DNA of 34,955 bases, taken from Candidatus Adlerbacteria bacterium (lineage in GTDB: Bacteria; Patescibacteriota; Minisyncoccia; Phycocordibacterales; SBAW01). The notes under the pieces were generated by a model. It saw only the letters and a list, made by a program, of their open reading frames with translations. It was not told the DNA's origin and made no database searches. A program made the translations under genes and the position numbers. The stretch lies in the NCBI GenBank assembly GCA_903819895.1, contig CAIJFH010000024.1, forward strand, positions 1-34,955, in the 5' to 3' direction. Below are positions 16,250 to 34,415 of this stretch, piece by piece (position 1 is the stretch's first letter; every line of letters starts with the position of its first letter).

Positions 16250-16411
16250 ATGCCATCACCATCACAAGCGCGAATACTGCACGCAAGCGTCAACCCGCTC
16301 ATCGGCGCGCTCTTTCTATTTTCTATCGGTCTTGGGGCAACGTTGATTATTTTGCATGTCGCGTACAACGCCAACCCGCTCGCGGATGTATTTGCAGCGA
16401 CACTCTACTAA
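16250..16411 (+). CDS. short single-TM protein (53 aa)
   Basis: The frame runs from ATG 16250 to TAA 16409-16411. It has a basic, polar start (M-P-S-P-S-Q-A-R-I-L-H), one hydrophobic helix at about residues 16-37 and a short outer tail. It lies 27 nt after the transketolase stop, and its own stop overlaps the stop of the convergent kinase gene by 2 nt. No family is recognised. Support comes from the clean membrane-protein pattern and from filling the gap exactly, not from homology. Confidence 0.55.
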   Translation: MPSPSQARILHASVNPLIGALFLFSIGLGATLIILHVAYNANPLADVFAATLY

Positions 16412-17406
16412 CCAAGCGGCGAGAGTGTGTACTCAGCGGGTGCGTTTTTGAGATACTCGTCCAACTTCTCGCGGGTGAGCAGTCCTTTTTGTGCGCCCAC
16501 CTCCTGCACCACCGACATCGCGTTGACTGGCCCCCACAGCAGCGCCTCCTCGAGCGTTTTGCCAAGCGCGAGCGCGGCAGTGACACTGGAGGCAAACGCG
16601 TCGCCAGCGCCGGTGCGCTCGTAGGGTGGGCGATTGTCGGGATACATCGGCACGTGCCACGTGGCGCCGTCGTGGTTGAGCGCGTATGCGCCACGTCGGT
16701 CGTCGGTGATCACCACCACGTTGGGGCCCAGCGCTTGCAAACCAGTGAGGAGTTTTTTGATATCAGTCGTTGGCTCAATTGCCAAGATGCGCTCGGCCTC
16801 TTCTTTGTTACAAAAAAAGATATCGCTGCGCGTGTAGATATCTTTGAGCGTATCCACACCAAGTTTCATCTGGAAAGTGCCGGGCTGGAAGGCCAATTTG
16901 GTATCTGGCATGGTCTTCAGCCATTCGGCGAGCGCCACGTGGTAGGGGAGCGAGTTTGCCGCAAGCGACGAGAGGTAGATCCATTTTGGCGACTCGGCGA
17001 GCGTTGGCACGGCGTAGTCAAACTCTTCGTGTTTGACCAAAATTGTGCGCTCGGTTTCGTACCAGAGTACAAAGTGATGATTGGTCTTTTTGCCTTGCTC
17101 GGTCACCATGAGCGATGTATCAACTTTTTCTGCAACTAAGGTGTTGAGCGATTGCTTGCCCGGCTCATCGTCACCAAGATAGGCGCGCAGTGATGCGTTG
17201 AGTCCCAGCCGTGCCGCGGACACCGCTGCGTTGGCCGAGTTACCCACGGCGTAGATGGGTACTTCGTACTCGTAGGGAATCTTGTCGCCCCAGCGCATGC
17301 AAATTTCGCACTGCTCGTGGTTCATCTTGCAGTGCACCGCGGCCTCTTTCAATCGGATAAACGGCTCGGTCACAATGTCGCCGATGGCGAGAAAATCAAT
17401 TTGCAT
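16408..17406 (-). CDS. PfkB-family carbohydrate kinase
   Basis: 332 aa, ribokinase fold. The family phosphorylates sugars or nucleosides with ATP. V-G-N-S-A-N-A-A (54-61) matches the N-terminal signature region and the catalytic end R-T-G-A-G-D-A-F (264-271) carries base Asp269. An extra loop near residues 26-42 holds H-C, H and C-x-x-C, which could bind a metal. The substrate cannot be read from sequence; its place between transketolase and aldolase fits a sugar or sugar-phosphate kinase, and replacement of classic 6-phosphofructokinase is only a hypothesis. The start is set by a -10 box 6 nt upstream on the minus strand. Confidence 0.88.
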   Translation of the reverse strand: MQIDFLAIGDIVTEPFIRLKEAAVHCKMNHEQCEICMRWGDKIPYEYEVPIYAVGNSANAAVSAARLGLNASLRAYLGDDEPGKQSLNTLVAEKVDTSLMVTEQGKKTNHHFVLWYETERTILVKHEEFDYAVPTLAESPKWIYLSSLAANSLPYHVALAEWLKTMPDTKLAFQPGTFQMKLGVDTLKDIYTRSDIFFCNKEEAERILAIEPTTDIKKLLTGLQALGPNVVVITDDRRGAYALNHDGATWHVPMYPDNRPPYERTGAGDAFASSVTAALALGKTLEEALLWGPVNAMSVVQEVGAQKGLLTREKLDEYLKNAPAEYTLSPLG

Positions 17407-17412
17407 AGAAAT

Positions 17413-17422
17413 AGTATATACT
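17413..17422. promoter_or_regulatory. palindromic bidirectional -10 element
   Basis: AGTATATACT is a perfect 10-bp palindrome containing TATACT on both strands. On the plus strand the box ends 7 nt before the aldolase ATG (17430); on the minus strand it ends 6 nt before the kinase ATG (17406). Only 23 bp separate the two start codons, so both mRNAs should be leaderless and share one -10 region. Confidence 0.75.
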
Positions 17423-17429
17423 GAAGTGC

Positions 17430-18335
17430 ATGCAAACACTACGCGAAACCATTTGGGAATTTAAAAACAGTGGGCGGGGGTTGGGGCATTTTAATATTTC
17501 TGATTCCAACCAACTCCATGCGGTCGTGGGCGGCGCACGCGAGGTAGGGCTCCCGGTTGTTGTTGGGCTCTCCGAGGGTGAGCGCGACTTTTTCCCGCTC
17601 GCAGAAGTGCGTTTGCTCATCAACCTCTATCAGTCGCAGGGGGTGCGGGTGTATCTCAACGCCGACCACACCTACTCTATCGAGCGCGTGCGCGAGGCGA
17701 TCGACGCCGGTGTCGACTCTGTCGTTGTTGATGGTGCAAAGTTGTCGTTCGAGGACAATGTTGCGCTCCTCAAGGCGAGTGTCGAATATGCAAGGGAGAA
17801 ACGCGCGAGCTCCTCGACTGTGCTCGGAGTAAATCGCGAAGTGTTGGTCGAGGGCGAGATCGGCTACATCGGATCCTCGTCCAACGTGATAGACAAACTG
17901 CCCGAGGGCGCAGCTATCACCGAAGCGATGATGACCAAGCCGGAAGAGTTGCAAAAATTGATTGCAGAGTCGGGGATTGACCTTGCAGCCCCTGCAGTTG
18001 GCAACATCCACGGAATTGTCACCAGCGGCCAGCCAAAACTTTCTATCACGCGCATCGCTGAGTTGGCCAAAGCAACGTGCCCCGAGCCCGGTCGAGGGGT
18101 GCCTTTGGTGCTCCATGGTGGATCGGGCTCGTCAGACGAGGAGTTTGTCGAGGCAATCAAAGCGGGTATTGCGATGATCCACATCAACACCGACCTGCGT
18201 GTCACCTACAAAGACGAGCTCACCCACGCACTCGCAGGCGCTAAAGAGGTTGCGCCCTACAAGTTCATCACCCCAGCAGTCAACGCGATGCAATCCTACG
18301 TCGCCCAAAAGTTGCGATTGTTTGCGGGGCAGTAA
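17430..18335 (+). CDS. fba: class II fructose-bisphosphate aldolase
   Basis: A 301-aa zinc-dependent aldolase that splits or forms fructose-1,6-bisphosphate. Metal and active-site motifs are N-A-D-H (His80), E-G-E-I-G-Y, G-N-I-H-G (His194) and V-L-H-G-G-S-G (His229). It lacks long insertions and is close to the usual short length. It closes the carbon block and shares a palindromic promoter with the divergent PfkB kinase, which suggests tied expression. Confidence 0.97.
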   Translation: MQTLRETIWEFKNSGRGLGHFNISDSNQLHAVVGGAREVGLPVVVGLSEGERDFFPLAEVRLLINLYQSQGVRVYLNADHTYSIERVREAIDAGVDSVVVDGAKLSFEDNVALLKASVEYAREKRASSSTVLGVNREVLVEGEIGYIGSSSNVIDKLPEGAAITEAMMTKPEELQKLIAESGIDLAAPAVGNIHGIVTSGQPKLSITRIAELAKATCPEPGRGVPLVLHGGSGSSDEEFVEAIKAGIAMIHINTDLRVTYKDELTHALAGAKEVAPYKFITPAVNAMQSYVAQKLRLFAGQ

Positions 18336-33930: not shown

Positions 33931-33958
33931 TTGACAAATCGCACTTTTACTATATACT
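33931..33958 (+). promoter_or_regulatory. strong promoter of the two-gene unit at 34062
   Basis: TTGACA (33931-33936) and TATACT (33953-33958) are 16 nt apart. It is among the best consensus promoters in the window. The leader would be about 97 nt. Confidence 0.75.
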
Positions 33959-33969
33959 GCGCCGCAGCA

Positions 33970-34015
33970 ATTTGTGCGTGTATTGTCCAATTCAACTTGG
34001 TTGACACGCACAAAT
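33970..34015 (+). promoter_or_regulatory. large 5' leader hairpin
   Basis: ATTTGTGCGTGT (33970-33981) and ACACGCACAAAT (34004-34015) form a perfect 12-bp stem with a 22-nt loop that holds a smaller CCAA/TTGG stem. It starts about 5 nt after the predicted +1 and ends 33 nt before the Shine-Dalgarno. It could be a regulatory leader, an mRNA stabiliser or an operator. Confidence 0.6.
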
Positions 34016-34061
34016 GCACATTCAAACAGAGGTCAGTGGCCTCAAGAGAAGGGATAGAGAA

Positions 34062-34415
34062 ATGAGTAGCGGACATGGCGGACATGATGCGCATGGCGGA
34101 GGCGATGGAGTTCCTGGATGGGTAAAAGTCCCTGCGGGGATTCTCCTGTTTGTCTTTGTTATTTTCTACCTAATCCCCGCGACTATTGCATCGGTAACGA
34201 CCAGTATGATTCGTGGAAATCTTGGCTTGCCGCCCATTGGATATGTTGCCCCCGCAGCGCCACAGCAAAGATATGTTCCACCTCAACAACCTGTGGCAAC
34301 AAATGCGGGACAGGGTGGGGTGGCGGTGGAGTCGGCAACCGCATCGGCGGCGTGCAAGTATCACTTACCGGCCGGTTCCAATGGCACTCTGTATGTTGGA
34401 GGAAGAAAATGCTGA
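34062..34415 (+). CDS. small membrane protein with Gly/His N-terminus and Pro-rich tail
   Basis: 117 aa, no known family. The start at 34062 follows AAGGG by 8 nt; the earlier in-frame ATG at 34014 lies inside the leader hairpin. A Gly/His-rich N-terminus (H-G-G-H-D-A-H-G-G-G) precedes one membrane helix (about 23-46), and a Pro/Gln/Ala-rich part ends with two Cys (A-C-K-Y-H and the final C). The stop overlaps the next gene's start by 7 nt, so the two are translated together. Composition is more AT-rich than the core genes. Confidence 0.65.
   Translation: MSSGHGGHDAHGGGDGVPGWVKVPAGILLFVFVIFYLIPATIASVTTSMIRGNLGLPPIGYVAPAAPQQRYVPPQQPVATNAGQGGVAVESATASAACKYHLPAGSNGTLYVGGRKC

Follow-up and report, generated by a model that had tools for sequence, protein, structure and literature searches.

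The gap between a PfkB-family sugar kinase gene and a divergently oriented class II fructose-bisphosphate aldolase family gene contains a perfect palindrome, AGTATATACT, which is very probably a bidirectional core promoter composed of two leaderless TATACT elements, one on each strand, that overlap by 2 bp. Comparable shared elements stand between many other gene pairs of the same genus. The two genes lie in a window of 34,955 nucleotides, i.e., the whole stretch of DNA that was analysed, which is contig C24 of a genome (G000) of 837,506 bp (0.84 Mb) in 38 contigs; the named organisms closest to it are Candidatus Adlerbacteria (Patescibacteria).

Two opposed -10 boxes in a 23-bp gap

The positions in Table 1 were read directly from the sequence, and the palindrome, the 7-nt and 6-nt spacings and the 23-bp separation of the start codons reported in the initial annotation were all correct. 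The 10-mer is its own reverse complement and lies mid-gap, and the opposed -10 elements have positions 17417-17418 in common, an overlap of the kind that defines bidirectional promoters. The distance between the predicted divergent start sites, computed from the -10 positions, is 23-24 bp. Homology backs both start codons, with alignments to relatives beginning at residue 1. An in-frame GTG at 17439 was rejected as the kinase start; it lies inside the aldolase gene, and homology does not begin there. The assignment of both enzymes to the same metabolic block is only partly justified: it is clear for the aldolase and less so for the kinase, whose best NCBIfam match, ribokinase, is far under the cut-off (84 versus 300 bits).

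Table 1. Features of the kinase/aldolase region, in window coordinates.
Feature	Position	Strand	Basis
PfkB-family sugar kinase gene, 332 aa, ATG at 17406	16408..17406	-	PF00294, E 2.3e-35; ribokinase-like matches only below cut-offs
Predicted kinase transcription start, A of the ATG	17406..17406	-	Inferred: 7 nt past the -10 box
Kinase -10 box TATACT (read 17418-17413), ATG 6 nt away	17413..17418	-	Fits the genome-wide leaderless TATACT-N6..8-ATG motif; commonest spacing
Perfect palindrome AGTATATACT formed by two opposed -10 boxes with a 2-bp overlap	17413..17422		Direct reading; genus conservation
Aldolase -10 box TATACT, ATG 7 nt away	17417..17422	+	Fits the genome-wide leaderless TATACT-N6..8-ATG motif
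Predicted aldolase transcription start, leaderless or 1-nt leader	17429..17430	+	Inferred: 7-8 nt past the -10 box; a pyrimidine followed by A, the usual pattern at these starts
Class II fructose-bisphosphate aldolase family gene, 301 aa, ATG at 17430	17430..18335	+	PF01116, E 1.8e-60; nearest solved structure 4to8, E 3.9e-36

Matches to the palindrome with at most one mismatch number three in the window versus 0.14 expected, and the exact 10-mer has six copies in the genome; copies on contigs C3, C6 and C13 are not between divergent starts. Flanked by CAT and ATG, it is present in 19 of 118 relatives, and the reversed control pattern was found zero times in the genus and once overall. One further G000 match to the CAT..ATG pattern (C22:1842) was discarded as a chance hit, its minus-strand ORF having two codons.

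Leaderless signals and the registers of overlap

In bacteria, leaderless genes can be recognised by a TA-like signal positioned about 12 bp ahead of the start codon (Zheng et al. 2011, PMC3160421). A TANNNT signal approximately 10-12 bp before the start codon is enriched throughout G000 and, judged by this published signal, the genome appears to use leaderless genes widely. Relative to near-start ATGs, in gene starts that were called by a home-made codon-score script and are approximate, TATACT stands exactly 6 nt upstream in 46 cases versus 0.3 in the control from internal ATGs, at 7 nt in 16 cases and at 8 nt in 14 (controls 0 and 0). Among the TATANT promoters spaced 6-8 nt from the ATG, 106 in total, 76 have TATACT, 24 TATAGT and three TATAAT; a pyrimidine is favoured at -1, just before the ATG, and TGG-like bases (extended -10) are favoured ahead of the hexamer. 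TTGACA is not enriched at these 106 promoters at spacers of 15-19, and an explanation based on a -35 element was therefore rejected. The main sigma factor of G000 is a sigma-70 with all regions, 1.1 to 4. It should be noted that the -10 preference of the leaderless starts at position -8 is unusual, the E. coli consensus TATAAT being almost absent. The window also contains a leadered, -35-bearing promoter (33931-34065): TTGACA at 33931-33936 and TATACT at 33953-33958 are separated by a 16-bp spacer, and the roughly 100 nt between TATACT and ATG 34063 include an inverted repeat (TTTGTGCGTGT ... ACACGCACAAA) and a purine-rich stretch.

The kinase and aldolase boxes resemble those of the leaderless genes of Zheng et al. 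2011, in that the ATG stands 12 nt (kinase) or 13 nt (aldolase) after the first T of the -10 element; they differ in that the consensus is TATACT and one element serves two genes. For back-to-back, opposed TATANT hexamers, only two registers of overlap are possible, since any other would need A and T at one position. Offset 4 produces ANTATATANT and offset 2 produces ANTATANT; with the preferred TATACT, these become the palindromes AGTATATACT (10 bp) and AGTATACT (8 bp), respectively. Therefore, the palindromic symmetry is a consequence of sharing, not added information. Because the boxes overlap, the extended -10 bases are excluded, which may weaken transcription in one direction or in both.

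The palindrome could also be read as the operator of a dimeric repressor, with promoters located elsewhere or overlapping it by accident. Outside the genus, AGTATATACT precedes, on one side only, small RelB/DinJ-like antitoxin-type genes (L176, L177 and L178 in genomes G085, G102 and G051; identified by eye), where operator use is expected, and it may be an operator there. At the kinase/aldolase gap, however, the core is the exact -10 consensus of the genome at the exact leaderless spacing on both sides, and the pair alternates among 10-bp, 8-bp and split forms, changes that no operator would survive. Palindrome length and offset vary among orthologs, with a -10-to-ATG spacing of mostly 6-8 nt, so that the element is not conserved as an operator unit would be, and half-sites in its flanks show no conservation. 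We regard the operator reading as extremely improbable.

Recurrence in the genus and history of the kinase/aldolase pair

The initial annotation took the arrangement for an extreme case, and the genus comparison did not bear this out: 72 comparable sites were found in 35 genus genomes (three with the reversed-pattern controls), the two types together being present in 32 genomes. The pattern CAT-N6..8-ANTATATANT-N6..8-ATG matched 32 sites in 20 of the 35 genomes (reversed control 1), and CAT-N6..8-AGTATACT-N6..8-ATG matched 40 sites in 24 (control 2). When one of the two spacings must be 6 nt, 29 sites have offset 2, 29 have offset 4, and 35 have offsets 6-31 taken together; the binomial P of this enrichment, about 1e-42, ignores shared ancestry, and it is safer to argue from the class counts and the large number of unrelated pairs. 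For G000, two overlapping pairs were seen versus 0.007 expected under random placement. The offset-4 pattern occurs 0.91 times per genome in the genus versus 0.14 outside it (27 sites among 193 relatives from the order, with 11 control hits), and a phylum-wide sample is similar to the order outside the genus (29 of 192 genomes).

ORFs of at least 60 aa lie on both sides at 65 of the 77 examined sites, which include a few with looser spacing (4-10 nt) and the known kinase/aldolase loci; these form at least 14 distinct gene pairs. Pairs conserved across species are kinase/aldolase, DUF4446/cysteine desulfurase, RecJ/HIT, peptide deformylase/uncharacterised, a weakly VTT-like protein/PAP2, and two uncharacterised exported-looking proteins. 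Single cases involve elongation factor P, RNase HII/PHP-domain protein, and an RNA polymerase sigma factor/peptide methionine sulfoxide reductase; in the last (L187, genome G032), the gene of a small sigma-70-family factor and the divergent reductase gene have a common -10 palindrome at offset 2. In four species (L206, L208, L166 and L230), a DivIC-like gene (weak match) is paired across a shared -10 with an ORF of 34-38 aa, which is conserved, is predicted to encode a membrane micro-protein and is probably unannotated. A given gene pair can differ between species in having offset 2 or offset 4. The palindrome as a mobile repeat was rejected, since the flanks are different at every site. Our coverage of the literature on leaderless transcription in Patescibacteria, which is incomplete, yielded no account of the shared-box arrangement.

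The divergent kinase/aldolase order is old: it is present in most of the order-level relatives found, often with a gap of 30-65 bp and two separate boxes, and separate boxes are the majority state among the relatives more distant than the genus. Within the genus, -10 bases are shared at 22 of 30 loci and the boxes are separate at eight, in a classification that leans towards finding boxes, because the start codon was picked among homology-supported candidates guided by the -10 score. The sharing loci include 16 with offset 4 (10-bp form), four with offset 2 (8-bp form) and two with offset -9, the latter (L025 and L029) being interleaved, with each box extending to the start codon of the opposite gene. 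At two of the 16 loci (L023 and L027), the palindrome is kept and a hairpin-rich insert ahead of the aldolase ATG leaves that gene leadered. At L023, L027 and L031, inserts able to form hairpins, with GCGAAGC-type arms, were observed in the part of the gap from the kinase-side -10 box to the aldolase ATG.

The proposal of the initial annotation that one element serves two predicted leaderless genes is supported both by the many leaderless TATACT genes of G000 at the same spacing and by the occurrence of the palindrome in most genus relatives. For balanced expression as a function, the refuting condition set by the annotation was that related genomes keep the pair and lose the palindrome. Such genomes exist: at L008/L009, the adjacent pair is kept, the palindrome is gone and two separate TATAAT boxes are present, and the gap is wider at L006, L010, L030 and L031. 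What follows is that sharing is dispensable. A protein tree of the genus (a quick tree with several weak branches) implies at least seven shared/split changes and 13 among the four classes. For example, in the closest relative (G027, locus L032; aldolase 83% identical), a 2.6-kb insertion with an 816-aa ORF parts the two genes, and each retains its own TATACT exactly 6 nt from its ATG. The inserted gene (L181/L032) has a peptidoglycan-binding-like start and right-handed beta helix-like repeats, as judged by eye. Each -10 box is conserved, whereas the sharing between boxes is not.

The G027 boxes also bear on the reading that only one strand carries a working promoter, the other gene being transcribed from elsewhere or its box being a by-product of -10 symmetry. 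Such symmetry yields antisense starts in many bacteria (PMC10268837); however, TATACT is perfect and at leaderless spacing on both strands, and the insertion left each gene with a box of its own. A single-strand promoter is thus very unlikely in our assessment, and the bidirectional promoter is the reading that we retain.

The proposed shared promoters and what they may mean

Experimental work on bidirectional promoters has mostly concerned E. coli and Salmonella. The E. coli examples of Warman, Grainger and colleagues (PMC12825309, PMC10268837) have favoured start-site distances of 18, 10 and 23 bp (PMC12825309) and, like the element described here, consist of opposed -10 elements with bases in common. 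Offset 4 corresponds to the 23-bp class, and offset -9 to the 10-bp class (PMC12825309). The palindrome therefore looks like a known kind of element, a bacterial bidirectional promoter of the 23-bp class, with predicted leaderless genes on both sides and as part of a habit widespread in the genus. Unlike the E. coli promoters, both transcripts are predicted to be leaderless, and one element is the entire intergenic region. In addition, the 8-bp AGTATACT form, whose start sites would be spaced by about 21 bp, matches the 10-bp form in frequency here, and the amplification is lineage-wide, at protein-coding pairs and without a -35 signal.

Under the proposed mechanism, the 23-bp gap would start both mRNAs at or beside their start codons, and RNA polymerase holoenzyme containing the housekeeping sigma factor would bind in one orientation or the other, never in both simultaneously for steric reasons. 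The initial annotation expected mutually exclusive but balanced expression: exclusion is a fair steric expectation, whereas balance should not be assumed, because at five bidirectional promoters of E. coli, whose start sites are separated by 10-23 bp, polymerases were found not to compete at basal activity (PMC12825309). Separate promoters standing back to back appear to have merged repeatedly into overlapping ones and at times to have re-split, most simply because a single hexamer at a distance of about 6 nt from the ATG suffices for each gene.

Conversely, the sharing itself might be selected, as the initial annotation suggested, with exclusive polymerase binding coupling or de-noising both genes; the overlapping -10 elements of the genus would then be a heritable coupling device, i.e., one-polymerase-at-a-time divergons for several gene pairs. 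Sharing is kept in relatives whose aldolases are only 48-69% identical, several ortholog pairs each retain a shared -10 in many species, and interference in E. coli can constrain noise once one side is activated (PMC12825309). Against this stand the repeated shared/split changes of the kinase/aldolase pair, the intact separate boxes of the closest relative, the lack of basal competition in E. coli, and the heterogeneous functions of the pairs (RecJ/HIT, RNase HII/PHP-domain protein and deformylase/uncharacterised). We consider selected coupling unlikely; if true, very small genomes would have a means of coupling genes or controlling noise that needs no regulator. Because the functions of the other pairs are heterogeneous and the shared and split states have switched repeatedly, we favour economy of sequence as the probable driver, which is a simpler explanation than a balancing role.

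These results suggest a lineage in which the bidirectional promoter takes a minimal form, one common element of 8-10 bp with a start codon about 6-8 nt off each side, at many protein-coding pairs. The shared promoters of this lineage switch between few discrete overlap classes, and sister species with shared and split versions make both the effect of polymerase exclusion and the evolution of shared promoters testable.
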